Source: Cheilinus undulatus (Eukaryota; Chordata; Actinopteri; Labriformes; Labridae). From it: a stretch of DNA of 64,000 nt. This document shows positions 6,076 through 64,000 of the stretch, in pieces. The translations under genes were made by a program, and so were the position numbers. Location of the stretch: the NCBI RefSeq assembly GCF_018320785.1, contig NC_054885.1, positions 5,592,921 through 5,656,920 on the forward strand. The letters run 5' to 3'. The notes under the pieces are model-generated. The model was given only the letters and a program-made list of their open reading frames with translations, ran no database searches and was not told where the DNA came from. Position 1 is the first letter of the stretch. Each line of letters opens with the position of its first letter.

Positions 6076-6600
6076 ACTCACTTTTCTTTTATTTTTGCCA
6101 CTTTCTAACCCCTTTTCATTATTTTTTTTTTTGCCCCTTTTACCCCTTTTTTGCAACTTTCTTGCTAATTATTGCCCTTGTGTACCTCTCTTTAACACCT
6201 TTTCCCTATTGTGCCAGGGTATTTAGTTAAGCCTAACTTTTGCCATTCTTTAACCCATTTTACACCACTTTGTCGGTATGTTTTATCCCCTTTGTGCTAC
6301 CCCTTTATCCATTTTGCCATTTTTTCTTATATTTTTGCCACTTTTTATCCCATTTAAATTACTCTTTTGCATTTTTTGCCACTTTTGACCATTTTTGATA
6401 CTTCTTTCCCCCTTTTCCCTCTTTTCCCTTTTTTTGGCAACATTTTAACCTCTTTTCACCACTTTTCCTGTCAATTTTTCATCCCTTTGTGTCACTCTAC
6501 GACCCATTTTGCCACTTATCACCCATTTTGCCACTCTTTAACCCCTTTTCACCACTTTATCTGTCCATTTTTGTAACATTTCAGCCATCTTTAACCCTAT
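6076..6600. repeat. degenerate TTTTGCCACTTT minisatellite array
   Basis: Irregular units of about 20-25 bases built on TTTTGCCACTTTTTACCCC. The same motif appears in reverse complement (GTGGCAAAAATGGG) inside the hAT-like element at 43571-44534, so both are probably remnants of one transposon family carrying an internal array. Confidence 0.7.
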
Positions 6601-19160: not shown

Positions 19161-22100
19161 GTAAATTAACACTCATCCAGCTGCTCCCTCAGTCCTATTA
19201 GACACTACATAAGGTAGCCAATGCACCAAGAAATGCTGCTGATGCTGCAGGTTATGGTTTTTGTTCAGCACAGGAAGCAGTAAGGTTATTGTTCAAAATG
19301 GAGAATGCACACTGTATGAACACAGGCCGCAGTCATTAAGGCTGCTGCAGGTGGATTCAAACGACAGCTGAACCGCTGGGTCACCTCACTAACATCACCA
19401 TATTTTACATAGAAGCCTAACGAAATAATTTAGAAATACTTTAATGTCACAGCTTACGCATTTAATTCAACATAAGCAGTGTTATGGATGTCAATAGCAG
19501 CTGTTAGCGTGCTAACGTTAGCATGAACATTTAGCATGCTGCTTCTGTCATGCTTTAATTAATATTAGTAAAAAACGGCACATTAGAAGTACGCATTTAA
19601 GCTAATTTTATATCATTTGCCTTCTTGTAGACACAAATTATGAGTTTTTAATGAGCGAAGCTGATTGAAAACGTAGCTAACGTGTTTAGCTTCGCTAGCA
19701 CGCCTGTCATTCTGTCCCTGAAAGCCTCCTAATTTAGCTAATCCAACAGTTAAAGGGTTGTAAAGCATAACAGAAACGAGGGTGTTTGTTTCTTAACGTG
19801 CACCTGAAAAGGCAGGTGTATTAATGTGTCTCCTAAGTTAATATTTCCAGTATTAGCCAGCTTGACAGCTAATGTTTTCCTCCATGCAGGAGGATGCAGC
19901 AGCCTCATTTAGCTAATGACAGTAGCCATGTGTTCAGCCGGCACAGTCAGAGGCTGCACACCCACAAGTTAGCAACTAGTTATAATACAGTCTTCACTAC
20001 TACTACTGAGAGACAGGGACCATAAGTCAGACCTCAGTAGTTTTAGCTGAATGGTGTTACATGATTGATATCTAAATGTAATTTCTGTAAAGAGAGAACA
20101 AAAACAAAGTTGGTTGTTCAGTCAAATGCATAAAACCAGAAGTCAAGTCACAGACAGCTGACAGCATGTGCATGAAAAATGATACAAAATTGAGCTTCCC
20201 ATTTAAATTAGAAAAAATAAAAGGATAATTCCCTATTTCAGCTAAACATTTTACTGAGCATTCAGCCTGGCATCTAACTAAAAAGAGTTATACTGACATA
20301 AAACATACAAAAAAAGGTGAATGGAAATCATATTTAGACGTTTTCAACGATGTAACAGCTGAATGTAAAAGGCATTTTTGTACAAAAGTGTCTCTTTTGC
20401 AAACTCCCGAACATAATAATAATTTTGTCATATTATACAGAAATTTGTATGATATTTTTGTCTAATTTTCAGCATTTGATACCTTTGTCAATACAACAGC
20501 ATCAAATGCAAGTATGATGCACCCAACATTGACTAACTAGTATGAATGCAGGGCATAATATCACTAGTGGTAGATATACACACCAAATAGGAATCAACTG
20601 TGTTTGCATATATGAACATTTCTGCCAATATTTACAACCGATATTCTGGTTGTAAAACTGCCTGTATCTGCTGTGAATATCATCCATACAAACAAATAAG
20701 TTATGGGATTTTCAGGCTGGACTGACAAACCTAGGTCAGCTCAACTCTTTTCTTGGTTTATCCTCATTCCTGACACTTCAGAATTTGTTTTAAGGCTTGA
20801 AATTGGTTAATTTGTTCATCCTTAAACTTCAAACTTTGTTTTTAAAGGATAGAAGTTTTAAGGTCTGAACTACGTTGAGATATTGGAATACATATAGGCT
20901 AAAATCAATTCTTAAATACTAGTATATTGGATGTTGTCAAAACTCCTTTAACATGTGTCCTTTCTTTTTATTTTAAGGTATTAAAAGATGGCATTTGTCT
21001 GCTATTTTGTCTTGAAAAATAATTGCATCTGCAGGTTTGAAAAGTTTAAATTAAACCCATATTTAGATTTTTTTAGCAAAGTAAGCAGCTTAATTTAGAC
21101 GTCTTTTTTAATACAAAAAGTGTCATCAATATGATATTGGTATCAGCAGTTATTAGTTAAAAAAAGTTTTTGGCAGATTTGAAAATTTCTCCATCTCTAT
21201 CTGTTGGTATAATACACATATATCAACCTATTTTCTTTGGCTTTTGCCTATGTAACAATTAAAATTGGTGTTGATTTTCTACAGTAATTGATCACTTTTT
21301 AGTTTGTGTGGGTCTTGGGATCCCTCAGCTTCTCTTAGATATAAGTGGGGGGGCTCCAAGAAACGGTTGAGAACCACATCTGTAAATAAATGCCACATTT
21401 ATAAGTTTGTCATGCATCCCTAATCAGAATACTTTCATTGTTATTGTATTCATCAGTGAAAGGGGCAGTTGTTTTTCTCATTCGCTGTATCATGCCATGT
21501 TGTCAAGATGCCATAAAAAAATCATAGTAAAAAATCTAACAGTATTGATAACTTTATCAGTAACACAGCAACAAAAATACAAGCCTTATGCACTCAATAT
21601 TGGTTCGTTTCCTCTTTCAAATTATAAAAAATTTGCAGCAAACTCCTGCACACCAATATGTGGCAATGTTTTTGTGAAATTTAGACAATGACACACATTA
21701 GAAGTACACATTTAAGCTATTTTTGTATCATTTGTGAAATTTAGACAATGTACAGACATTTGGCTGCTTATTAGAAGCAAGGAACTTTCTGTTTATTAGT
21801 GCTTACTACTTCTGTTTTTATATCAGACATTTTGTATTTAATGTGTAATTTTTGCAATGTAAAATACCTGAAAATATTTGATAGCATTTTTATTCCAATG
21901 TTTTCCTATTTGTTTCCTAGTTAATTTTTTTGTTACATAAAATTGCAGGCATTCCTGCAATTTGTGCAATTCAGACAGTACTCCTAATGTTGTTTATTAG
22001 CATTTTGTCAAAAATATTACTAAAGATAGTCTGATGCATTCTATACTTTTTGAATATTAAAGTGTCAAAGATTGTTTCATTGCAAAACACGTGGAATCAA

Positions 22101-25100
22101 AGTCTGTGGCATGTGGCCCATTGTTACAGTCCATTAATATGATTTTTGTGTGTCTTACAGGAAAGAAGAAAGTACGACCCCGACCTCGCACTCCCATCCT
22201 GGAGGAGAAGGAGATCCCTCCTCTTTTCCTTCCCGACTCCTCGGAGGACCTCCTGGTGCCTAACGAGGAGATGCTGAACGCCACCTCCATCTATGAGGTT
22301 GTAAGGAACTTCAGCACTGTTCTGCGTCTGTCCCCCTTCCGTTTCGAGGACTTCTGTGCAGCACTTGTCGGCCAGGAGCAGTGCACTTTAATAGCAGAGA
22401 CCCATATTTCCCTCTTAAAGGTCATCCTGCGTGAGGAGGACTCCTCCAACACTACCTTTGGCCCCGCAGACCTCAAAGACAGCGTCAACTCCACTTTGTA
22501 CTTTATAGACGGCATGACGTGGCCCGAGGTGCTGCGAGCGTACTGTGAAAGCGACCATGAGTACCACCACGTACTGCCCTACCTGGAGACGGACGAGTAT
22601 CCGTACAGTCCGCTTGAAAGTAAAATCAAGGTGCTACAGTTTTTGGTGGACCAGTTTCTTACTACCAACATCGCCCGTGAAGAGCTGATGTCTGACGGGA
22701 GTATGCAGTACGACGATCACTGCCGCGTGTGTCACCGTCTGGGGGACCTGCTGTGCTGCGAGACCTGCTCAGCGGTTTACCACCTGGAGTGCGTGAAGCC
22801 TCCCCTGGAGCAGGTTCCAGAGGACGAGTGGCAGTGTGAGATTTGTGTGGCACACAAGGTGCCCGGTGTCACGGATTGTGTGTCAGAGGCACAGAAGACC
22901 AGGCCCTACATCCGGCAGGAGCCCATCGGATACGACCGCCACCAGAGGAAATACTGGTTCATAAACAGAAGGATTATTGTGTAAGTTAAAAACCAAGGTT
23001 GTCATGATGACAGCAGCCTGTTGCACCAGTTATGTGGAAGTTCTGTCTTAAATTATGTCATTGTTGTAGTTGCACCATGCGGATGTAACATTCATCTTTA
23101 CTAGTAGAGCTTAACGTCCAAACAAACTGAAATATTGTTGCAGATGTGACATTTTCACTGAAGTTGATCAATCAGAGAAAAGCATTTTTAACACAGGGTT
23201 TGTTCCAGCGCTGCAGCGTGATGTATAGTCTTTAAACAGGCTAAAGGCTGAAAATAACAGCTTACTGCTGTTAATTTTCAGTAAAGGCCAAAAGTGCATG
23301 CAAAATATTATAAAGCATTTTACTGCCTAAACCTAGAGCCAATATAAAATAACACAGACAGTGGTAAATAATCAGTAACTCTTGTAACTCTAACTTGTGG
23401 AAAAGGACAGTGCAGTCGACCAAAGAGAGCACACTGTTAACACAAAACAGCCAGTAAAATTCGAAACCCCCTTACGTCCTCAGAGTTATCCCACTTTTTA
23501 AAACTGTCTCCATGACGATCAGATTTTGCAGAGGACTTTGTGTAGGTGGTAGGTGTAATATTTAAGTTATAGCTTAAGCCTGGGTTGAAACTATTTCAGC
23601 ACGTGCAACACCTTAAATGCTAGGAGATTGTAAACTCTTGCATAGCTGGTGCAACCCATAGCAGGGTTTTAAACTTTGGTTTGATCTTAGGGGATAAATA
23701 TAAGTCCTAAACACCCATTATTGGGCAGTTTGTTCTATGATTGATCAGTAATTGCAGACACTTTCCACATGACACAAATGTATAAGCACACTGACACCAT
23801 TTCCATCTACTAAGGTTGTAAGAATTTTTTTCTGCAATGTTAAGATCCTAAGTCATGTTTTTAACTAAAAGAGACAGGGCACCTTCAAAATTGCGCAAAT
23901 GCATTGGAAACTTTAGGAGATAAGGGTGAAACTTGCAAGGAGTGAGCCCTTTTTTAGCCACTTTTCCAGATGTTTATAACATATTTGTGCAATTTAGCCA
24001 ATGTGCAAGAGTTTGCCTGCTATTTTTTGATAATAAGAAATAATAAAATGGCAAATATTGGGTGTTTAGCAGGGCTGAACAATTTGTAAAAATAATCTAA
24101 TTGCAATTTTTCCCCCAGTATTGCGATTAAATATGCTATTATTTTTAGGTTCCTCATCTTATGTGTTCAACAAACATAAGTAATAAATCCTTTTTTATCA
24201 TATGATATTTGCGACTTTGGCTCATTGAGCAGATTTGATATCAATTGCTATCTTGAAGGGGATGATCATTTTTCACATTGTTCTCATTCTGATGAAGAAA
24301 AACACATGAACAAGAAAAGTAGTACAAAAAATAAAAAGCATTTGAATTTTTGCATAAAACAAGATAGAATAAAACTGGTATTATGACACATTTCAGGTTA
24401 AAGAAATATTGCACTGTCTGCGATTTGAAAATTACAGCATGCCATATTGTGATTTAATCTTCCCAGCCCTAGTGTTTTGAACTTCTGATTTTGTTGCTGT
24501 CATATCACAGACACCACTGCTACTAAAACAAATATTACTGGTCATATCTCGCCCTCTGCTTCACCTGTATTTGTTACTGATCATGTGTACGGTGAGGGCT
24601 GGGGAAAAGATTTTCATCTGCTAAAGGTGGGGATGTCACAAAAAGTTAAGGAATCAATGCTGTAATCATTTTTACTGAGTGTTAGGCCTGACATCTGTTT
24701 TAATCACCTTGAATTATATTGAAGTATTTTAATACTTAAATCACATCTGAAAATACACTGATGCATCTTAAAAACTTTATGTGTTGCCCAACCTGAAGGG
24801 ATGCCTTTTTCTGCAACCAGATTTAAAGACCTCGACTCCCCATATCAGGTCATTTCATTATTTTATCACCAAAAACTGCTGGGGACTCCTCCTTTACTGT
24901 CTAAAAAAACTCCTGAAAGTATTGAGCTTCAATAACAGATGTTAACTTTGCTGTTACTCCAGTATGCACACAAACTATAGAAAGTTTTTAAAGATGCATC
25001 CCAAAACATTGGCAATATTTATTTCTGACAAGGTAATTTCACTGTTGCTCCATTTATCTATCATGAATTGCTTTATGTTGCTATGAAAGAGCCAGGTGAG

Positions 25101-43100: not shown

Positions 43101-46100
43101 TATTTGTTTTACTTTTGGTGGATGAGCTTCTGTGAAAAAAGACCTGGATGGCTTTTATGTCTCTACATTTCTCAAATTGTGTCAAATTGCTGTCACCTTG
43201 TGATCTAAAGCTTTTTTTAGTTGCTTTGCAAATAATTTATTTTATTTAAAAAAATCAGAGACATTCTTCTGACTCTCACACACTCAGCATGCCTCGATAC
43301 ATCCTTGACCCACATCAGTGCATGTGTCCCATACATTTATGTCTGCATATTTGGCTTTTTCTTGATGTAACTGTGTTTCCCAACAGGTGTAGTGCAGCAG
43401 AAAGTCCTGGGCATATTCCCCTCCGGACCCCCTGCAAACCTGAGGACCTACAGCACACTGCATCCTACAACCGGCAACATCAACCTCAGAGCGTCCACGT
43501 CTGCCTCCAGCACTCAGCAGCAGGTACTTCAACAGGATGGTTCCTACCTAAAGCTTAAGAATATCTAAAGCAGTGTTACTCAACCCTGCTCAACCAAAGA
43601 GCAAAATTGTTGAAAAATTCATTTGCAAGAGCCACAATCTAAGTGGTGAAAAGTGGCAATTAAAATAAGTTGAAGGTGGCATAATGGTCGAAAAGTGGCA
43701 AAAATGGGTGGGAAGGGACTAAATAATGAGTTAAAAGAGGCAAAAACATTGCAAAGAATGAGTTAAAAGTGACTAAAATGGGCAAAATCAGAATAAAGGT
43801 GGTAATATGGGCAAAAAGTAGCATTTAAATGCAAAAGGCACCTTAAATGGGCAAGAAGTGGCAAAAAGGGGAAAAAATTGTAAAAAGCAGGATAAAAGTG
43901 TCAAAAAGGGAGAAAGTGACAAAAAGAAGTGGCAAGAATGGGATTGAAGCAGCAAACACTGGAAGAAAAGTAGCAAAAAAAGGCAGAAAGTGACAAAAAT
44001 GGGTGAAAAGTGGCAGAAAAATTAGTTACAGGTGGCAAAAATGGTCCAAAAGTGACAAAAACGTGGAGAAAATTAAGTGAAAAGAGACTCAATTGGCCAA
44101 ACATCAGGGAAAAAAGGTGGGAAAAATGGGCAAAAAGCATCAAATGTTGGCAAAATTTGAAATCAGTGGCATTTAATTGCAAAAGGCAGTTTAAATGGGT
44201 GACAAGTGGCAAAAAGGGGCAAAAAAATGCAAAAAAAGCTGGATAAAAGTATCAAAAATGGGCTAAAAGCACTAAAAATTTAATAGTAGTAGCAAAAAGT
44301 TGCAAATAAGGGCAATGGAAATATGCAGACAAAAAAAATAGAGAATGACAATTAAGTTTAACAATTAAAGTCTACTGTGTAAGTGTGGGAAACAAACTAA
44401 TTGATGGTACTTGCAATGGATAATTTCTGATGTAAAATTTTCATTTTTAATGTTATCTGGGGGAATAATATTTCAAATTAAGACATCAAAGAGCCACAAA
44501 TCATCACCAATGAGCCACACGCTGAGTATCACTGCTCTAAAGCATCGGTAAGGGTGGTTTTACCTCTGGATTTCTGTTCTAGGTCATCAAAGCAGGAGGT
44601 CAAACACAGCCTGGCACCACGATGAGCCCATCACCTTCAACATCTACCTCTGTGAGCACAGGGATGGTCAGAAGTCAGGCTCAACAAGGTAAAAGCAGTT
44701 TGATACTTTTAAAGCCAGTACATCTCTGTTATTTTAAGGGTTAATAGTATGAAAGCTTACCAGAACTTAGGAAAAAAGTCAGATCTTGAGTCACATTTTC
44801 AATGAAAAACTGCTGAAACAAGAGAGAGAGAGGTTGCCAGAGCTAAAGAACAGAGATGTTGCCTGCCTGACAGTCAGCATGCTTAGTAGAACATGGTTTC
44901 TTTTTACTGATTATTCATATGTAACCATAATTTCCTTTTAAATTTTCACCCTTCACAGCTGCACCTCAGCAGGCTGTAGCCCCGATGGGCCCGGCTCAGC
45001 CAGGATCTACACCTGTGAGCGGTTCTACCCCTGCAGCTCAGAAAACAGCAGGTCCTGCACCAGCACCAACAGCACCTGGACAGACACCTGCAGCTGCCCC
45101 CCAGACCCCCAGACCACAGCAGGGTCAAGTTAAACTCACCATGGCGCAGCTGATGCAGCTCACACAGGGGGCTCAGGTGAGAGCATAGTCTTCTGCTGTC
45201 TTTAAAACCTTACTTAAGAAATTACTTATGCCTTCAGTGATGTCACTAAACTCAAGTCGAGTTCCCCTTTTCTTTGCAGGGTGGAAATCCAGGTCTGACG
45301 GTGGTGATCCAGGGTCAGGGTCAGACACAGGGCCAGCTGCAGATCATCCCACAGGGTGTCACAGTCATCCCCGGTCCTGGGCAGCAGCTCATGCAGGCAG
45401 CTATGCCAAACGGTCAAGTCCAGCGCTTCCTCTTCACCCCAATGCCTCCATCCTCATCTGCTTCAACCTCAGCATCCACCACTGCTACCCCAACAAAACC
45501 CGCCCCAGCCCAGACCCCTCCGACCCCAGTAACACCACCAGCTCAAGTCAGAGCCCCTGCACAGGTCCAAACAACTCCTTCAGCCCTCTCCCAGGCACAA
45601 ATGTCTGCCCCTGTACCCACCCCAACACAAATGCCGAGTTTGGCTCCGACTCCGGCCTCGGTCCCTTCTACGGCCCGTGCTCCAGTTACCCATATCCCGA
45701 TGCAAACACAAGTTTCAGCCCCTGCCCCGTTACCAGTCCCTGCACAGCCTCAGATATCCGCTCCTGTCCCTGCTCTGCCGCACATCACGCCACAGACCTC
45801 TTCACAGGTCTTATCCTCCACCCCGGCCTCTTTACCCACGCAACCCCCAGTGGCGAGACCTGTCTTCTCCCCAGCCCCAAACACGGTGTCAGCCATGCCA
45901 CAACCACAAATTTCCATGTCTCCCCCTGGCTCATATCCCTCACAAACCCAAACTACAGCATCACCTCCTGCCCCCAGATCAACTGCACCTCAACACCACC
46001 TCCAGACCTTCAGCCCCGCCCCTTCCTTCACGTCAGCCCAGCCCCAAATACACGTCTCTGCTCCAGCCCCGACTCCTGCACCCTCTTACTCCGCTCCCAT

Positions 46101-49100
46101 GCCCGTGTCCGCCTCTCTTCCCTCACATGTCCATGTCCCAACCCCTGCTCTGGCTCCTGTCTCCGCTCCTGTCATAGCTGTGGTGTCCACCCAGATCCCT
46201 GTCCCCTCGCCGGGCAGAGCTTTGACCCATATACAGACCACCGCTCCTGTTCCTCTTCACGCCGCTGTGGCTAATGCTGTCGTCACACCGGTCACGGCCA
46301 CCTCTACAACACCTTCAGTGCCAGGTAAACAACTCACCACTTTTCCATCAATCATCATTAATAAAAGATTTATTTTTATTGAAGTTGGGCCAAATAAATT
46401 TCCAATTTATGAGAATTATGGCCTCATACTTGAATGTTCTTACCTGCAACCACAATGCTATTGGCTTCAATCCATCCCCAATGCCCATGGGAAGTCCCAG
46501 TGAGAAGAAACCAAGAGAACAAGCTAGATTTGTGGCCAAGGGTTAACGATAAGTTTACTTTCCAGCACCCTGAAATGGGTTCTTTGCAGGTAAAGTCAAA
46601 TCACAGGAGAGAACTCCAGATGGGGGGCAGGAAGCACTATCAGAATTCCAAAGTTTTGTTTATGTTATGGCCGTGCCAACTGTTCAGATTGCAAATGAAT
46701 AATACAAAGCTTATTCTGAATGCCAACACTAGTGACAAAAAGCTAAAGGAGAAACAGCTGCAGGCACAAATAAAAGCCTCCGTCTAAAGCCTGGACGAGC
46801 AGAGTCAGACAACGCACCCCCATTTTTTCCACAGCTGATGCTTTCAAGCCTTGCTCATTGAGATGTAAAAGCTGTCTTTTTGCAGAGATCTGGATAATTT
46901 GGCTCTGCTCAGTTATAAGAGCTGGTCCTTTGGCTCCCAAATGGCTTTTCATGTGGTACTGGTTTGGCTTTTTAAATGTAGATTAAATAACAAAAATTAA
47001 GGGGAAAAATGGCACTCTAATGGAAGTTAGCTTCTGTAGCTAACATTAAAGAGCCGTTTGGAGACCTGGCTCATTTGTAAATGTCATGGAGCTTGGACTC
47101 TTACTCCACAAGGTCCATCCATCCATCTTTTGTTTATCCGGGGCTGGGTCACGGTGGCAGCAGGCTAAGCAAGTCCATCCAGACATCCCTCTCCCAGCAA
47201 CATTTTTAAACTCTTCCTGGAGGATACTGATGCATTCCCAGGCCAGATGAGATGTATAATCCCTCCAGCAAGTCTTATGTCTACCCTGGGGTCTCCTTTC
47301 AGTTGGGTGCACCTGGAAGACCTCCACAGGGAGGGGACTAGGAGGCATTCTGATCAGATGCCCGAACCACCTCAAGAACTGACTCCTTTACTTCGAGATC
47401 TTCAGATGTCCGAGCTCCTCACCCTATCTTTTAGGCTGAACCCAGCCACCCTTCTCAATCCTTTGGTTCCTACCCAGAGTTCATGACCATAAGTGAGGGT
47501 TGGGATGAAGATCGATTGGTAGATTGAGAGTTTCCCTCTTTACCACAAAGGTCCGATACAATGTCTGCAAAACTGCCGATGCTGCACCAATCTGCCTGGC
47601 GTTCTCTCGGTTTATTCTGCCCTCACTCGTGAACAAGACCCCGAGATACTTAAAGTCCTTCACTTGGGCTGAAAACATCTTCCTCTCCTTGAGGGATGGC
47701 CTCAGACTTGAAGGAGCTGACCCTCATCCCGACAGTTTCGTACTCAGCCACAAACCAAACCAGAACAGAACCACATCATCTGCAAAAAGCAGGGACTGGA
47801 ATCCTGAGGTCACCCAAATGAACACCCTTCTTTCCTTGACTGCTCCTAGAGATCCTGTGCTTGAAAATCACAAACAGAGTCGGAGATGAGAGGCAGCCCC
47901 ACAAGGTTTCTGTGATAAATAGTTCCTCTGTGTTTCCATTAAAAGAATGAGAGTGACAAAATGAGGGTGACAAACTTTTAATGTGGCTCAACTAGCCTCT
48001 TAGCTCAGTGCTAGACTCGTCAAGAGTCTACTAGCCAGTCCCTTCTGGTCTGGCTAGTTGCTAGTTGCTTTGGACAAAAGTGTCTGATTAATGTTAGAAA
48101 CATGACCTTTACCTCAGTCAGTCATTAAGGGGAGTTCCAAATGTTTTGACTTCACTTTAGGGTAGCTGTGATGTCATCCATCTTTATATACAGTCTACCT
48201 GAACCCTGTTTTACCATCCTGTTTGTTATTTGTAGACTCATTTTTAAATCATCTCGTCTCTGTCTCTCTTCCTGTTGCAGTTCTTGCCGAGCAGAGAGCC
48301 GCTCAGCCTCAAACCTGGACTTCAGTCCCGTCTCAGGCTCCCAGTCCAGCTCAGCAGGCTGCAGCCCCAGTGCAGACCCCCATCCAGGCTCCCATTTCTG
48401 CCCCTACACCAGTTTCTACACATCCACCCGCACCCCCTCTGCCTCCAGCCCAAGTCCAAGTCCAGCACCCAACCATGGTGTCCATGCAGCAGGTGTCTCA
48501 GAGCCCGGTCTCAACGGTGCAGGTTCACATGAAGGGAGTACCGGTCTCTACAGTGAGACCTCCCCAACCTCTGATCCAAACCCAAACCCAGCGTCAGGCC
48601 CAGATCTGTGCTCAGATTCAGGTCCAGCCCTTCAGCCAAGTCCAGCAGATTCAGGCCCAAGCACAAACCCCAAACCAGCCCCAGGTCAGGGTTCAGTTTT
48701 CACCTCAAACCCAACTACAGCCCCCCATTCAAAAACCACCTCAGGCACAGTTTCAGCCCCAAAACCAAACCATGCCCCAGGTCCAGGTTTCTGCCCAGTC
48801 CCAGCTCCAGGTCCAGTCAAGGGTCCAACCTCAACCCCAGGTTCAGTCTCAGGTCCAGACCCAGCTCCATCCCCAGGTTCAGGTCCAGTTCCAGCAGCAG
48901 AGCCAGACTCACCCCCAGACTCAGGCTCTGCAGCAAACCCAGGTCCAAACCCAGACCCAGGTCCACCCTCAACCTCAGTTTCAGGTCCAGTCACCACAGC
49001 AGACCCAGGTCCAGCAGCAGCAACCCCAGGTCCCACCCCAACCCCAGTTTCAGGTCCAGTCCCCACAACAGACCCAGCTCCAGCAACAGCAGCAACCCCA

Positions 49101-52100
49101 TGTCCACACCCAGGTCCACCCCCAGTCACAATTTCAAGTCCAGTCCCCAACGCAGATGCAGGTCCAACAGCAGCAGCTTAAGGTCCAAGCCCAAACCCAG
49201 GTCCACCCTCAGTCCCAGGTCCAAGCCCAGCCCCAGTTTCAGGTCACGTCACCTCAGCAGCTTCAGGTCCAAGCCCAACCCCAGGTCCAGGCCAAACTCC
49301 AGGTCCAGTTCACACCTCAGAACCAAACCCAGGTCCAAACTCAGCCTCAGATTCAGGTTCAGTCCCCCATCAGGCACCAGCTCATCACTGTTCCGGGTCT
49401 CCAGCAGCCGGTCCAGCTCCTCTCAGCCCTGCCTCCCCATGTTGCTGCCCAGATCCAAGCCCAGATCCAGGCGCAGGCACAGCAAGGGGGCGCCATCCCT
49501 CAGCAGATCAAACTGCAGCTGCCGATCCAGATCCAGCAAGCAGGGGGGCAGATCCAGACCCATCAAATCCAGAATATGGTCACCATACAGGCACCGGCGA
49601 GCGTCCAGGAGCAGCTGCAGAGGATGCAACAACAACAACAACAGCAGCAGCAACACCAACAACAACAGCAGCAGCAGCAGCCACAACAGCAACCAAAACC
49701 AAAGAAGAAGAAACACCCGGAGGCTAAAAGGGAACCGAAGGAGCAGAACCTGCAGTCAGTCAGTCCTGGAGACGGCATCCAAAAGCCTGTAAGACTCCAA
49801 ACAGTTTATACAAAGTGATTTATTTCAGGCTGACTCTTGATATTGGAGATTTTAACTCAGGTTTTTATATTTTTAAGGTGTTTGTGAAGCAGAATGTTAC
49901 AGCAGAGCAGCTGAAACAGAGGAAGAGTCTGGCTGCTGCAGAGCGAGAGGAGAACCAGAGGTTTGGAAAATGTCCATTACAAAATTTTGTTGAGTTTATA
50001 TCACGGCTGGGATTTTACAGTATTGCCATTAACTTGAATACTTGCATGGTCATTCATAAAACTGAACAAATTTGTCACATACAGTGGCCCCATGTGTTTC
50101 TTTAGGGGTCCTGCTAATCAGCCAGTTGTGAATGAGATTACAAAAGATGATAATACATTATTATTTGTCCCTAAACTGTATAAAATAACACTTTGATTTA
50201 GATTAATTGATCACACAAGCATAATACTTTTTCAGTTCACTTCAGTTTAACAACTTTATTTATCCCTCAAGGGGCAATTGGTTCAGAGCAGCTTGTACAT
50301 AAAAACATGGATAAAATGCAGTGACACAGACGGCAGTAATATGTGTCAGCTTAAATACACACCAAGACCTAAAAAAGAATGCTGGTATAAATAAGGCTGA
50401 AAAATTAGTAAACGGGCTAAAAAATAATGACGAATAGTGTACTGAAAGGGTTGACTACGTTCACGCTGCAGGCCTTAAAGGTCACATACTATGCAAAATG
50501 CACTTGTTCAGGCTTTTCTAGCAAAAATATGTGCCCCTGGCCTGTCCACAATCCCCCCCAAGAATTGCCTTTTGTGCTCTTTCTCTCATTCCCAAACACA
50601 CATCTACGGCCCACTAAAAATGGCTGATCATCTGAGAACTACGGCTTTCCCTGATAGCAGCTCATTTCCCTTTATTCCAGAATGATTGTCTGCAACCAGG
50701 TGATGAAGTTCATACTTGACAAGATCGAGAAGGACGAGAAGCAGGCGGCAAAGAAGAGGAAGAAGGAGGAGGTGGTGGAGCAGAAACGCTCCAAACAGAA
50801 CGCCACCAAGCTGACGGCGCTGCTGTACAAGCACAAAGAGCAACTGAAGGCCGAGATCCTGAAGAAGAGGGCGCTGCTGGACAAGGAGCTGCAGCTGCAA
50901 GTACAGGTAAGCCTACGCATTTCTTTCACCAAGAGTGCTTTCATTGATGGAAAATGAATTATCAAGGAATTATTTTCTATCAACATTCATCCCCCAGTAA
51001 CATCGCTGCTGGTTTGGGATGCTGATGCTACTTGAATTAGACGAGTTTAAGGTTAATTTCCCCTAATTTGATACTTTTCTGCTGTGGTGTATAAAAATAT
51101 TTCAGTTTTATTGCTTTTCATGTCATTTCAAACTCATGTGATGCATGCTTTAGAGCTTGATGTGCATGAAAACAGGAGAAAATAACTCTGTATGTCTTGT
51201 GTCTCTTAGGAGGAGCTGAGGCGAGACATAGCCAGACTTCAGAGAGAGAAGGAAAAAGCCCGCGCTGCTATCGCTCAGGCCGCCGCTGCAACCGTCAAAG
51301 CCGCTGCCGCCTCCCACTCCTCCTCCCACCCTTCCCACTCCTCACATTCCTCTCACAGCAGCCACACCTCATCTTCCTCGTCCCACAAACGAAAGAGGGA
51401 GGAGGAGCGAGACAGAGACCGGAACAGAGACAGGGACCGACATCACGACAAGGACAAGAAGAGGGACCGGGAAAAGGAACGAGACCGATACAGAGACAGG
51501 GAGAGAGAACGGGACGGGGAGAGAGAGAGGGAGAGGGACAGAGACAGAGAGCGGGACAGACATCGAGACAGAGACCGAGACAAAGACAGAGACAGGGACA
51601 GAGACAAGGACCGGGACTCAAACTCATCAAAACACAAGAAGAAGAAGAAGCTCTCTTCTACCTCAAAGGACCACAAGAAAGACAGCAAACTGTACTGTAT
51701 CTGCAAAACGCCGTACGACGAGTCAAAGTAAGCATCCATGATGATATTAATTGCTCTGCTGTGATGCTCATGTGGCAGGAATTAAATAATCTCTCTCTGT
51801 GCCAGGTTTTATATCGGATGCGACCTGTGCTCCAACTGGTTCCATGGTGCTTGCGTGGGCATCACAGAGAAAGAGGCGAAGAAGCTGGAGGACTTTGTAT
51901 GTAACGACTGCAAACGAGGACAGGAAGGAGGAAGCAATGAGGAGTTATACTGCATCTGTCGGACGCCATACGACGAATCACAGTACTCAACCGCATGATT
52001 TACAAATGCATTCCTTATTAAATAAAATCCTCTGTTTCCTGACAGATTTTTCCATATTTCGCCTTCAGATTTTACATCGGCTGCGACCGCTGTCAAAACT

Positions 52101-55100
52101 GGTACCACGGGCGCTGTGTGGGCATCCTGCAGAGCGAGGCCAATCACATCGACGTGTATGTCTGCCCGCAGTGTCAGTCGACAGAAGACGCCATGACGGT
52201 CCTCACGCCGCTCACTGACAAAGACTACGATGGGTTAAAAAGAATATTACGCTCGTTACAGGTGCAAATACTTATCTGTCCTCTTTAGTTTTTACAAACG
52301 TATCTAATCTTAGAAATCACTAAGCATCTCCAGGGAGCAAGCTCAGAGTTTAGCGGTGCTCATAGGCTCCAGACTTCTGTCACTGATTATTCAAAACTGT
52401 GGTTTTATTTCCTATTATGTAAGTTCATCCAAATACCTATAAGCTCCTGATAGTTGAGGTAAATGCCATATTTTTGTGAGCAGCTGTACATTAAACAAAT
52501 AAAAACACACACAGACAGAGACAGAAACATTATGTAAGCCAAAAATCAAAACAAGACCTGAACAAACACAGATATAAATTAGGCTGGCAAATGAATAAAT
52601 AGACTAAGAACAAAAGGGATTAGTCTTTAAGGATCTGAGAGAATTTAAAGATAAAGGTATACAAGAAAAAAAAATTAGAAGTATTTAATAATCTGATTGC
52701 AGAAGAAATGAACGATTAAGAATAGGAGTTATTTTTACAGATAGGTAAAATATAATGCCTGAGAAAATTCACTCAAACCCAGAAGAACCCAGAATACACT
52801 TACCCTGCCAAAGGAATTTGATTATTTTATTTTTAATTTATTGTGGAGGCAAATAACAAGAAAAAAACATTTTGTTTCTGTCCAAATAGTTCTCTGTTTA
52901 CAGGCGCATCTAAAAAAATTAGAATATCAGGAAAAAGGTCATTTTTTTCCTTTGATTTCTATCAAGAAGTAAAATTTCCAAATGTTCTAGATTCATCTTA
53001 TACAAAGTGAAACATTTCTAGACTTTTTTTGTTTCAATGTTGATGGTTACAGCTCACAATTGTCCACTCTCAAAATATTAGAATATATCACAAAAAACAG
53101 TCCAAAAAGGATTTTTAAAATATATTATTTTATTTTCATTTTTCAACCAAAAAGGAATTATAATACAGAAATATTGACCTGGAAAATTATGCTTAGTTAT
53201 GCACTCCTTTTGCACAAATTTGTGCATCTATAGGACAAGGCATGAAGTCCGTGGCCCTGCTGGGATTTTATGAAACCCAGGTTGCTCTGATAGCAACCTT
53301 GAGTCTGGTGTCTCTAATCTCTCTCTTGACATTTCCCCAGAGATTCTCTACAGGGTTCAGGTCAGACCAGTTGGCTGGCCAATGAAGTACGGTAACAACA
53401 TGGTCAGAAAACCAGTTTCTAGTTTTGGCTTCACTGTGGACAGGTGCGCAGGAAATCAGAACTGAACCAGAGCAAGAGAATGAAGACTCAGGAAACCTTT
53501 GCAAATTAGACTTTTCCACCATATTCTAACATTTTCAGATAGTGGATTTTTGTGAGCTTTAAGTTTGTCTTTCTTGGTTTTGCTTCAGTGTTTTAATATA
53601 TTATAACAGAACATCAAATCATGTCTTTTCTTTCTATTTCACAGTCTCATAAAATGGCGTGGCCCTTCCTTGAACCAGTGGATCCCCACGATGCACCGGA
53701 TTATTATCGCGTCATCAAGGAGCCGATGGGTAAGAGAAAAAGTGTCAAAGGTCTTGCTCGTCCAACCAGGCCAAAAGATTTGGGACTTGAGGTGCAGAAT
53801 TGTGTTTATTTGTGTATGAAAAGGCAAATTTCCTGTCATAATGATATTAATAGTCATAATATTGGCAAAAAAGATTATAATGTTGTTTTTTTACTTATTT
53901 CACACATTTCTTTGCCCTTTCGCAGACTTTTCTACGATGGAAACCCGTCTGCAGAAGCGACATTACCACAAGCTCACAGAGTTCGTGGCCGACGTGACCA
54001 AAATCTTCGACAACTGCCGCTATTACAACCCCAACGACACGCCCTTCTTTCAGTGCGCCGAGGTGCTGGAAGCCTTCTTTGTACAGAAGCTGAAAGGTTT
54101 CAAAGCGAGCAGGTGAGCTGAGGGTGCCACTCTTCTTTTTTTTTACAACAGACCTTTTCTCAGTTTCTGACTTCCTGTCTGCTTTGGCTGTCATGTCAGG
54201 CTCATTTTCTCCTAAGTTATGCATTTATTCCTGTCACTCACGGTGTATCCCTCATGCATGTGTAGTGTCGAATACTCTTCACTGTAGACTAGATTGCTCT
54301 GAATATGTCATGGTTTCAGTGGATGCTCGTTTGCACTAAATTCAACATGGCTGCCAGATGTTGAGACATTCCGGCCGTTGTCCTAACAGAACTTTGTGCC
54401 GTGTTACATCAGTTTCATCTTGCATTTGTGTGTGTTCATCTTTGCTGCATGCCTTTTTGATTTATTCCATCCCATTCTCTTCTTTCTTGCAGATTGTCAG
54501 ATTCTTAAAGGGGCCAGTCTAGCAGGAGTCTGGACTGGAAGCTGGGGTCTCTTATAATAATGTCTCGACAACTTTCTTATGTCCAAAAACAGCAGAAAGA
54601 CTAAAGACAGGAGTCAGAAACACTCACACCAAATGTGCTTTCATGTAAACGCCAAACATTTGGCCTTCATGGTAACCGTTTTGATTTCCAGCTAAAGACA
54701 GCAGCCATGTTGATGTGGTCATCGGTTTCTGGTCCGATCCTTTCCATCACAGCGTTGCAGATGTTTTAATGCATTTTAGTCCCTTAGTGTCTCTTCAACT
54801 CCTCATAGTTTATTATTAAATGAGAAGACACTCGCTGATCACTTTATTAGATACACAGCCAACTGCTTTTTAATGCAAACATCTAATCAGCCAGTCACAT
54901 AGCAGCGGCCGGTGCATTTAGGCACACAGGCTGGTTAAGACGATGTGCTGGAGTTCAAACCGAGTATCAGCATGGGAAGGAAAGGTAATTTTAAAGACCT
55001 GCATGGTTGTTGGTTGTCTTGCAGGCTTGCTTCATCAAAGTCCAAATTTTTCATGAGATTATTAATAGTGGTTGAAATATTTAAGACATTTGGGTTGCTG

Positions 55101-60536: not shown

Positions 60537-63500
60537 GTGAGTTTTACGGACAAGCCTGGACAAGTTATGTTCAAGATCAAAAATCTGTGTCGGTTTCCTT
60601 GTTAAACATATTTGACTCAATAATGTTTGCCTGTTAAATAATCAGGAGCTCCGTCGGAGGAGGGTGGAGGTGAATGTGGAGCTCCGAAAAGCGAAGAAAG
60701 ATGATCAGATCTTCAAGAGGAGGAATGTGTCTGCACTTCCTGATGAGGCGACTTCTCCTCTGCAGGAAAGAACACAAAACTGCCAGGTACGGCTAAAAAA
60801 ACACTAAATATTAACACAAAGGGTGATATTTTAAATGTTTAAGTATGAAGTGGTGAAGGATCATATTAGTATAATATATATGAAGATATCAGTAAGAGGT
60901 AGGGATGCATATGATCAGCATGATCATGTCAGTATCAGCAAATGGTAGCTCTAAAAGTTGTTTATCTGTATCCACAGATAGGAAAATTTCTGCTGGTACT
61001 TCAGCTGTCAATATCAGCCTTTTTTCCCCTGGAGCTCCTCCTACTAAGCTCTAAGAAAAGCCAAAACTCACACAAATTAAAAAGTGATATGTTGCTGTAA
61101 TTATCTCATGGACAAAACCCAAACCCCCAAAAATGTGTTGGTATATGTTCATCGTATAAAATTAGGCTATATATGATTTGTGTAAGTAAAGTTTTGCCAT
61201 GATCTTATTCAACACATGCCAATATAATGATGTGATTACCTCAGAGCAGACAAAGCCTTGCACTCCCCGGCATCTTTGGCATTTCCCCTGGATTGGGAAC
61301 TGGTGCGCTATGGGAGTAAATATTGGTCATGTGTATGAAAAGGTTTTTGGGGATTAAGGCTACACAAACAAACTGAAGTTCTTTTATTCCCCAGATATTT
61401 TGCAGGGATTTTTATGCCTATTAATCTTAGAGAAGGACAGTGGATGGAGTTGGAAACAGAGTGTGGGGGAGATCTGTGGAAAAGGAGTCACGGCCGGACT
61501 TCAACCCAGGCCGCGCCCCTTAAGTCCTTTTTTTTCTTCGTTCATTCTCATTCCTGAAGTTTTAATTTGTGCTTAAAGGACTGGAGTTTGTTTCATCCTT
61601 TAAAGGTTTTTCAAGGAGTGAAGTTTTAGGTCTGAACTACATTTAAATATCAATTTTAAAAACAGTTATCAGAAAGATGATGTTGTAGATATCCACCAAA
61701 ATCCAATTTTGTTAATCCCTTATATGAGATGTTTTAAGACCAGTGATTCTCAACTAAAGAGCCAAATTGTTAATAAATACCTTTGCAAGAGCCACAATCT
61801 GACCTGAGGCTGTGAACCCAATCATTTCTAAAATATATCTATTAATGAGACCATGCAGAGATCCTGGTTTAACCTTTCATTTTCATCAGTTTTCTTTATA
61901 TACAGTCATTTAAGAATTATTTGGGTTAAAAAGCTAGTTTAAGATGATGGTTTTGTTCATTATACAAAAAATCCTTTATCATCTCTTCATTTTATTTAAC
62001 TTATTAAAATACCTGTTACTCTGCAATTACTAATTCATTTAGAAAGATTAGTTTAATATGGTTAATTTTGGAGATTAAGTTAGAAAATCATGAGATTCTT
62101 CAGATAAGTGGAAAAAATGAGTGAAAATAATTCATTTTATTTCTACTTCACACAACTGCTACTTGACACCTCGACCTAGACCACGTCCACTTTAAATTAC
62201 TGTAAAACCGAAGTGGAAGGTCAAGTTTGGAACCTGTTTCGTTCCTTTTCTCAAGAATCTGTGATTTATTTTGCATGTTCTCTCTTGCACACATCCAGTG
62301 GAAATATTCAGACAGGAAGATAAAAGTTTAAAAATAAATTTACCTTTTAAGGGCTTCTGGAGTCACAAGTCGTCAGTAAAGAGCCACTCGTTGAGCATCA
62401 CTGTCTTTTTTTTTTTTTTTTTTTTAAGATTTATTTTTGGGCATTTTTGTGCCTTTATTAGATAGAGGAGGACAGTGGATAGAGTCAGAAACAGGGTCAA
62501 GAGTGGGGGAGAGGGATGTGGTGAAGGGCCTCAGGTCAGATTCGAACCCCGGGCTGCCCGCATACATGGGGAGTGCCTTTAACCACTAGGCCACCTGCTC
62601 CTCGAGTATCACTGTTTTAAACAATACAGTGTATGCATTTTTATAATAGTATTGGAAGGACTGAAGTTTGCAAAAAAAAAAAAAAAAACTAATGCACAGG
62701 GAAGGTTAAAAACTGTACAATTTATACAGTGTTTGGAATTTTCCTTCAAATTTGGAAATTAAAAAACAATACGCAGTACAACTCTGACTTATATTTTTAG
62801 TGCTGGGGTATCAAACAAGTTCATTTTTTATGTGTTGCTTCCAGGAAAAATTAAACTTCCTTGACTGACATCTCTTTTGGATGGAGTTACACAAGAGTTT
62901 ATAACTTGCTTGCTGACAAAACCTCTTCATTTCAACACATTTGTCACAACACAGATGCAGTCTGTCTGTCTTTGAGACTTATAAAAAGTTATACAACTTA
63001 TGAACTTTTCAGGCTGCCAGACAGTGGACAGTTGAAGAAATTCTTACTGGAGTGAACAGCGGCAATCCCGAGTCCCAGCTCCAGGCCACACAGGCTGCAA
63101 GGTACTTCACATTTCCCTTCTAAGCTTTAAACTATTGGAGATATGGTGTTTCCCTATACCAGTGTCAGTTTTAGATGTAGTCTTGCTAAGTATGCCATAT
63201 TAAAGCATATATTTAAATTTCTTTGATGGATGAAATGATGGCATGCGAAACTTTACAGCCATGATAACTGCCTTTTACCGCTCTTTCTGATTTCAGGAAG
63301 CTGCTGTCTCGTGACAAACACCCTCCCATTGACCAGTTGATAAGTGTCGGACTGATCCCCAAGTTTGTGGCCTTCCTGGGGCTCCATGACTGTCCTCCCA
63401 TCCAGTTCGAGGCATCCTGGGCTCTGACCAACATCGCCTCAGGGACGTCCGATCAGACCGCCGCTGTGGTCGAGGGTGGGGCCATCCCTGCGTTCATCAG

Positions 63501-63747
63501 CCTGGTCACATCCCCCCACCAGCACATCAGCGAGCAGGCCATCTGGGCCCTCGGAAACATCGCTGGTAACTCACTAAATATTTGCTTCTTGGGATGCAGT
63601 CGTCAGGAATTAAAGATCATGTTTTTAATGTTTATGTATTTCTTTAATGTAGGTGATGGATCAGCTCTAAGAGATCGGGTCATCAAGCATGGAGCTGTGG
63701 CCCCTCTACTCAGCCTGCTGGCCGTCCCTGAACTCTCCGTTTTTAAT
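60480..63747 (+). CDS. kpna2: KPNA2, importin alpha (5' part, five coding exons)
   Basis: Karyopherin alpha 2 binds classical nuclear localisation signals and, with importin beta, carries cargo through the nuclear pore. Coding exons in the window are 60480-60536, 60646-60786, 63013-63101, 63297-63565 and 63653-63747, with phases 0, 0, 2, 1 and 0 at their ends. They give about 217 residues: the importin-beta-binding domain ([40 protein letters not shown]), then armadillo repeats with [30 protein letters not shown] and [20 protein letters not shown]. The WALTN and WALGN motifs are the Trp/Asn pairs that grip the signal peptide. The start codon is chosen because it follows the acceptor at 60423 and matches the family N-terminus. 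The gene continues past the right edge, so roughly 300 residues are missing. Confidence 0.96.
60646..60786 (+). CDS. kpna2: kpna2 coding exon 2
   Basis: [20 protein letters not shown] and [19 protein letters not shown]: basic IBB segment with the auto-inhibitory KRRNV motif. Phase 0 to phase 0. Confidence 0.96.
61393..61520 (-). mobile_element. tRNA-derived SINE, degraded
   Basis: GGGATTTTTATGCCTATTAA, AAGGACAGTGGATGGAGTTG and CGGCCGGACTTCAACCCAGG follow the order of the SINE at 62405-62603. Confidence 0.6.
61741..62614. mobile_element. hAT-like element split by a SINE
   Basis: Left end CAGTGATTCTCAACTAAAGA, right end GAGTATCACTG, with GCAAGAGCCACAATCTGACC inside as in 43571-44534. Flanking 8-mers TTTAAGAC and TTTTAAAC agree at six positions. 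It lacks the GTGGCAAAA array. Confidence 0.7.
62405..62603 (-). mobile_element. tRNA-derived SINE with target duplication
   Basis: On the minus strand the tRNA-like head has an A box (TGGCCTAGTGGTTAAAGG) and a B box (GGGTTCGAATCTGACC), followed by a unique body and an A-rich tail (T run at 62406-62426 on plus). Flanked by GAGCATCACTGT (62393-62404) and GAGTATCACTGT (62604-62615). Confidence 0.8.
63013..63101 (+). CDS. kpna2: kpna2 coding exon 3
   Basis: [30 protein letters not shown]: linker into the first armadillo repeat. Ends in phase 2. Confidence 0.95.
63297..63565 (+). CDS. kpna2: kpna2 coding exon 4
   Basis: [20 protein letters not shown] to [15 protein letters not shown]: armadillo repeats 1 and 2. 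Phase 2 in, phase 1 out. Confidence 0.97.
63653..63747 (+). CDS. kpna2: kpna2 coding exon 5
   Basis: [31 protein letters not shown]. The donor AAT/GTAAAG keeps phase 0. Text after 63747 no longer resembles importin alpha, supporting this end. Confidence 0.9.
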
Positions 63748-64000
63748 GTAAAGATTTATTTTCAGTCTGAATATTTTCCTAATACTCTAGTCGGAATTAG
63801 CGGTGTGTTCTCCTTTTAATCCACAAGGGGGCACCCTCACTCAACCATATGCTTCCCTACATTTAACTTAAGTCTTGTGTATTTGTTTCTAAAACTTCTA
63901 AATTTAAAAGTGACCATAGGATGAAAACACTCAGGCCTAATCTGGAGTATTGTTTTTATTTTAACTTGTTATTTAACATGTTTTGTATTTAAATGTCTTG
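63748..64000 (+). other. kpna2 intron, cut by window edge
   Basis: AT-rich intron start; no further exon before the window ends. Confidence 0.7.

Follow-up and report, generated by a model that had tools for sequence, protein, structure and literature searches.

One exon in a fish bptf gene raises the question of whether splicing could change the number of chromatin-reading PHD fingers that NURF carries beside its bromodomain. The gene, on the plus strand, lies with most or all of its length inside a 64,000-nt stretch of Cheilinus undulatus DNA (the window), and the exon sits within its tandem C-terminal pair of PHD fingers. The explanation that we favor, and hold to be probable though well short of certain, is that this cassette exon is a repeat unit of an old tandem PHD pair that is now used as a switch, such that the fish makes both one-finger and two-finger forms.

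A cassette exon that begins and ends inside a finger

Fingers A and B, the starts of which are spaced 59 residues apart, are both interrupted after base 2 of codon 21 (residue numbering follows PMC2705796 for Trp32 and PMC13191287 for K21, R36 and E46; here and below, published work is cited from passages of the open-access texts). The region is organized as follows:

51210..51727, plus strand: exon A, an Arg/Asp-rich linker and then the first half of finger A (A1), in an open frame with AG before and GT after
51728..51805, plus strand: intron 1, 78 bases, phase 2, GT-AG
51806..51982, plus strand: cassette exon, 177 bases, with the remainder of finger A (second half, A2) followed by the first half of finger B (B1)
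51983..52068, plus strand: intron 2, 86 bases, phase 2, GT-AG
52069..52261, plus strand: exon C, with the remainder of finger B (second half, B2) and then the linker that leads to the bromodomain, shared by both forms and aligned to human 2f6j_A

The frames and GT-AG sites agree to the base with the junctions, the 78- and 86-base introns and the 177-base phase-2 exon of the original prediction. The cassette length is a multiple of three with phase 2 at each end, and the reading frame is open over both splice products, exon A-cassette-exon C and exon A-exon C. Inclusion gives fingers A1A2 and B1B2, with junction codons AA/G (Lys) and CA/A (Gln), and skipping gives the single finger A1B2, with junction codon AA/A (Lys).

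In the mechanism that we propose, the tandem pair would be divided inside its fingers and not at the finger boundary, because both copies bear an intron at the same codon. The prediction had drawn attention to the logic of this half-finger exchange. The fusion itself is real, since register is preserved, the frames are open and all Cys/His positions are kept in A1B2. It is less special than was proposed, because skipping an exon whose two flanking introns cut tandem copies at one and the same codon always leaves one complete copy; a skip that preserves the fold is an automatic result of having the same intron in each copy of a tandem domain, and the mechanism is ordinary. A within-finger intron is a trait of the C-terminal pair and not of every bptf PHD finger, since the N-terminal finger is whole in one open frame (open reading frame residues 221-262, profile 1-47).

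Retention of intron 1 or intron 2 would meet an in-frame stop, in the case of intron 1 immediately past the junction codon, and the protein would end before the bromodomain. One explanation for the short introns is therefore that they serve mainly for retention, with transcripts that end in finger A or after B1 and yield either a form lacking the bromodomain or decay. A fly form without reader domains, NURF301-C, is described (PMC2705796, PMC13191287) and would be a parallel. However, what the in-frame stops provide is the bare possibility of such transcripts, and we regard retention as the main role of these introns as very improbable.

Finger halves that look interchangeable

As predicted, the Tyr-Tyr-Tyr-Trp cage is kept in A1A2, B1B2 and A1B2 alike; each of the three also has the full complement of eight Cys/His positions. 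The first half supplies Cys11, Cys13, Tyr10 and Tyr17 (two of the eight zinc ligands and half of the four-residue cage), and the second half supplies Cys26, Cys29, His34, Cys37, Cys53, Cys56, Tyr23 and Trp32. The zinc ligands of PHD fingers have a cross-brace arrangement; with ligands and cage residues divided between the halves, zinc site 1 and the methyl-lysine cage would thus be assembled across the splice junction, where A1 would contribute its ligands and cage residues and either second half, A2 or B2, would complete the finger. Tyr10, Tyr17 and Tyr23 are positions that we take to belong to the cage, and Trp32 is named as a cage residue in PMC2705796.

Scores against the Pfam PHD profile (cut-off 24 bits) are 41.9 bits for A1A2, 39.5 for B1B2, 39.6 for A1B2 and 41.7 for B1A2, the fourth pairing, which neither splice form makes. 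The range from 39.5 to 41.9 bits is too narrow to set the natural forms apart, and the halves therefore look interchangeable at the profile level. A1 and B1 differ at residues 8, 14 and 21 only, A2 and B2 at 16 of 36 residues, and the whole fingers at 19 of 50. Where A and B encode the same amino acid, the codon differs in 5 of 11 cases between A1 and B1 and in 10 of 20 between A2 and B2; at four-fold sites, the figures are 1 of 3 and 4 of 6, respectively. This comparison suggests that the PHD duplication is old, from a codon sample too small for dating.

The human finger has the layout of the skipped form

The top PDB matches of the fish finger are human BPTF chains (2f6j, 2f6n, 2fsa, 3qzv, 2fui, 2fuu, 2ri7, 6aze), and the A1B2 form matches human BPTF with 170.2 bits in phmmer. 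Identity to the human finger is 47/50 for A1B2, compared with 44/50 for B1B2 and 34/50 for A1A2, so that the skipped form is closer to human BPTF than the prediction, which had noted the resemblance, could show. Of the sites that discriminate the two fish fingers, 3 precede the junction and 16 follow it. Human BPTF has the A residue at all 3 of the former; of the latter, 13 carry the B residue, 3 match neither finger and none matches A. Over the 16 decisive sites, the 3 A-type and the 13 B-type, all A-type preceding all B-type is one of 560 arrangements. The human residues turn from A-like to B-like at the intron position, and we conclude from this residue pattern, with its three A-type sites (few) and one species, that the human BPTF layout is A1B2, as skipping gives. 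This result is new to the present analysis and is the best point of the finding.

A very weak donor at the cassette exon

The following signals bear on the use of the exon:

51983..51988, plus strand: cassette donor, ACA/GTACTC, score −1.18
51993..51997, plus strand: GCATG, at offset 10 in intron 2, with ∼0.08 expected per 86 bases at the window frequency
52038..52043, plus strand: CCTGAC, which resembles a branch point, its A (52042) lying 26 bases 5′ of the acceptor; top branch-point score in intron 2 (6.41)

The cassette donor has the lowest score among 13 hand-called bptf donors, the next being 4.22, and matches the consensus at 4 of 9 positions (5 of 9 for the next lowest bptf donor), whereas the exon A donor, AAA/GTAAGC, scores 7.33. 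In score, the cassette donor is equaled or exceeded by 1797 of the 3407 GTs that the plus strand of the window contains; a GT picked at random would do as well, and skipping is therefore plausible. A suboptimal splice site is typical of an alternative cassette exon, and the donor shows it; the acceptor is not weak. Concealment of the donor by RNA structure was considered and discarded, since 64 of 200 shuffled sequences fold equally well (z −0.38).

GCATG is presumably an Rbfox-type motif, and CT repeats lie upstream of the cassette acceptor. Both came from an uncorrected scan of about a dozen motifs over three stretches, and we treat them as leads only, weak as evidence. At the other end of intron 2, an AG ending at 52045 ties with the 52068 acceptor on a crude acceptor score (3.63 each), and 52068 is the likelier acceptor because the decoy lies only 3 bases past the best branch-point-like site. 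Use of the decoy would add 23 bases (52046-52068) and shift the frame.

The weak donor fits a skippable or regulated exon, and also a decaying one. The exon could thus be a relic, mostly skipped while its donor is being lost, in which case the fish protein would essentially be the one-finger human form; human BPTF indeed has one finger at this place. Against decay, no stop interrupts the 177 bases, and neither the cage nor any of the eight Cys/His positions has been lost, even though A and B differ at 19 of 50 residues. We consider a relic quite improbable, and the intact coding sequence of the cassette, with all zinc and cage positions retained, supports its use as a switch.

A second possibility is that the exon is constitutive in the fish. 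The protein would then always have two fingers, as in the fly, and the compatibility of the exon with skipping would be a by-product of duplicating an intron-bearing domain. Two fingers are reported in fly NURF301 (PMC2705796), the geometry requires no selection for skipping, the cassette acceptor is good, and short flanking introns favor intron recognition. Neither a donor at the level of a random GT nor the skipped layout of the human protein is what this explanation leads one to expect, and we find it rather unlikely.

Several points nevertheless weigh against an exon switch. The donor scores, including the rank of the cassette donor, come from an informal matrix and from hand-called introns limited to the C-terminal region of bptf. 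The cassette acceptor is not weak, at 3.93 the best of the four acceptors scored, and the RNA fold at the cassette donor is no better than that of shuffles (z −0.38). The human gene may have lost the cassette exon instead of skipping it. Finally, in the passages of the open-access literature searched, no transcript with skipping is reported, from this fish or elsewhere.

What inclusion would change

If the exon is a switch, inclusion would give A1A2-B1B2-bromodomain and skipping A1B2-bromodomain. The fish would make both forms, with the very weak donor favoring skipping and inclusion requiring activators. Because exon C and the bromodomain exons are common to both forms, the finger adjacent to the bromodomain stays; the joint between the distal finger and the bromodomain would be identical, and the reading of H3K4me3, which PHD2 of fly and human binds (PMC13191287), would be preserved beside it. 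Inclusion would add a finger with a ligand that is probably not H3K4me3, and would change distal residue 21 from Lys to Gln.

It had been proposed that splicing toggles NURF between one and two methyl-lysine readers, a claim that the fly data leave unsupported. In the fly, the finger that adjoins PHD2 carries the cage residues and was a suspected methyl-lysine binder (PMC2705796), yet a 2026 study found for fly PHD and PHD1 weak array signals for H3K36 marks that pull-down did not confirm (PMC13191287). We infer that fly PHD1 is the counterpart of finger A; a neighboring finger with a cage and no binding in pull-down means that cage residues are insufficient as evidence of binding. An extra finger plus a Lys/Gln choice at residue 21 therefore appears, on our analysis, the likelier effect than a choice between one and two methyl-lysine readers.

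A finer effect of splicing through residue 21 of the distal finger is possible. This residue is within the K21/R36/E46 group that contacts H3K9acS10p, and Arg36 and Glu46 are required for enhanced H3K4me3K9acS10p binding (PMC13191287). Arg36 and Asn46 are shared by the hybrid A1B2 and by B1B2, the distal finger on inclusion, with Lys21 in the former and Gln21 in the latter; finger A has Ala at 36 and Lys at 46, hence neither Arg36 nor Glu46. Two features speak against such an effect. Residue 46 is Asn in the fish and Glu in human, so the H3K9acS10p pocket may work otherwise than in human. Residue 21 of fly PHD2 is, we believe, Gln. That finger prefers the triply modified peptide all the same (PMC13191287), from which it follows that Lys21 may matter little and that a large effect is unlikely.

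These considerations allow a broader hypothesis, which we regard as doubtful: the textbook human BPTF finger would itself combine, through splicing, halves of two ancestral fingers that meet at residue 21, within the H3K9acS10p-contacting group, and regulated inclusion of the cassette in vertebrates would trade distal Lys21 for Gln21 and add finger A, tuning the combinations of H3 tail marks that NURF holds. If both forms are made, one exon alters the number of chromatin readers of NURF while leaving the bromodomain-adjacent H3K4me3 finger undisturbed, and the human finger of the structural work would be one of the two products that splicing makes from an older pair.

The gene in the window and neighboring features

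Identification of the gene as bptf draws on the following parts:

22061-22984, plus strand: reading frame with DDT (Pfam 67.3 bits) and PHD (37.9 bits)
53645..53729, plus strand: bromodomain exon 1, 90% identical in tblastn to a human query typed by hand, with boundaries at splice sites
53926..54112, plus strand: bromodomain exon 2, 81% identical to the same kind of query, with acceptor and donor

An N-terminal DDT domain with a PHD finger and a C-terminal PHD finger followed directly by a bromodomain (∼53645-54112) are features of BPTF/NURF301, and both are present. The bromodomain match at 53645..53729 has 24.9 bits (Pfam cut-off 21.7), and a partial WSD match at 22061-22984, with 20.4 bits, is below its cut-off of 25.4. 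Along the gene, the DDT/PHD frame is followed by a glutamine-rich part, the Arg/Asp-rich exon, the C-terminal PHD region and the two-exon bromodomain.

The glutamine-rich exon (48951-49693) contains imperfect 69- and 153-base repeats and a CAA/CAG run, and its long overlapping open frames probably follow from the repeats. The Arg/Asp-rich linker before finger A (51393-51611) has 6-, 12-, 18- and 66-base repeats and is prone to length change. Degenerate arrays of ∼20 bases (AAAGTGGCAAAAATGGG-like) occupy 43600-44540, within a bptf intron, and a similar unit in the opposite orientation occurs at 6281-6549. A reading frame with armadillo repeats at 63268-63819 (Arm, 86.3 bits) is probably the next gene after bptf; we take it to be kpna2-like, on the assumption that kpna2 is the neighbor of BPTF in human. 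In Nile tilapia, bptf and bptfl are both named (PMC9454494), and some fishes may have two bptf copies that could differ in the cassette exon.

Comparison with known systems

Neither the cassette nor the half-finger swap is described in the passages of the open-access literature searched, a scope that covers neither supplements, subscription papers nor genome annotation, and the exon may well be annotated; the possible two-finger mammalian isoforms mentioned in the original prediction were likewise not confirmed in that literature, and PMC6138936 and PMC9924231 name BPTF in their reference lists alone, as far as their available passages go. Pattern searches for relatives of the cassette in the viral_contigs collection (21 matches) and of the tandem pair in the genome_contigs collection (17 matches) gave no confirmed case, these collections being prokaryotic or viral and silent on animals.

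That splicing alters the reader content of fly NURF301 is established (PMC2705796). The fly protein resembles the fish one in that a pair of fingers adjoins the bromodomain and the additional finger has cage residues, and differs in that the splicing described there removes the C-terminal readers; a half-finger swap is not seen in the passages of that paper, and the fly sequence was not aligned. In mouse male meiosis, splicing of the same gene is regulated, with a minigene that responds to PTBP1, but the event is an alternative 5′ splice site and apparently not a cassette in the PHD region (PMC3905889). Alternatively spliced exons in mouse Bptf (PMC2570622, figure legend) and changes in its coding isoforms in striatum (PMC10048575) are also reported, in both cases without identification of the exons in the passages cited, and count in favor of a splicing switch. 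The 863-base "extension" event listed for mouse Bptf (PMC6440020) is, by its size, other than the 177-base cassette.

The human PHD-bromodomain region shares with fish A1B2 a Lys at residues 8, 14 and 21, and differs from the fish pair in that the PDB constructs contain a single finger. More generally, where every repeat of a tandem domain array carries an intron in one common position and phase, the exons are symmetric and a middle exon can be removed in frame and in register. The bptf cassette differs from other such exons in that its unit is a zinc-binding finger, with zinc site 1 and the methyl-lysine cage both spanning the junction.

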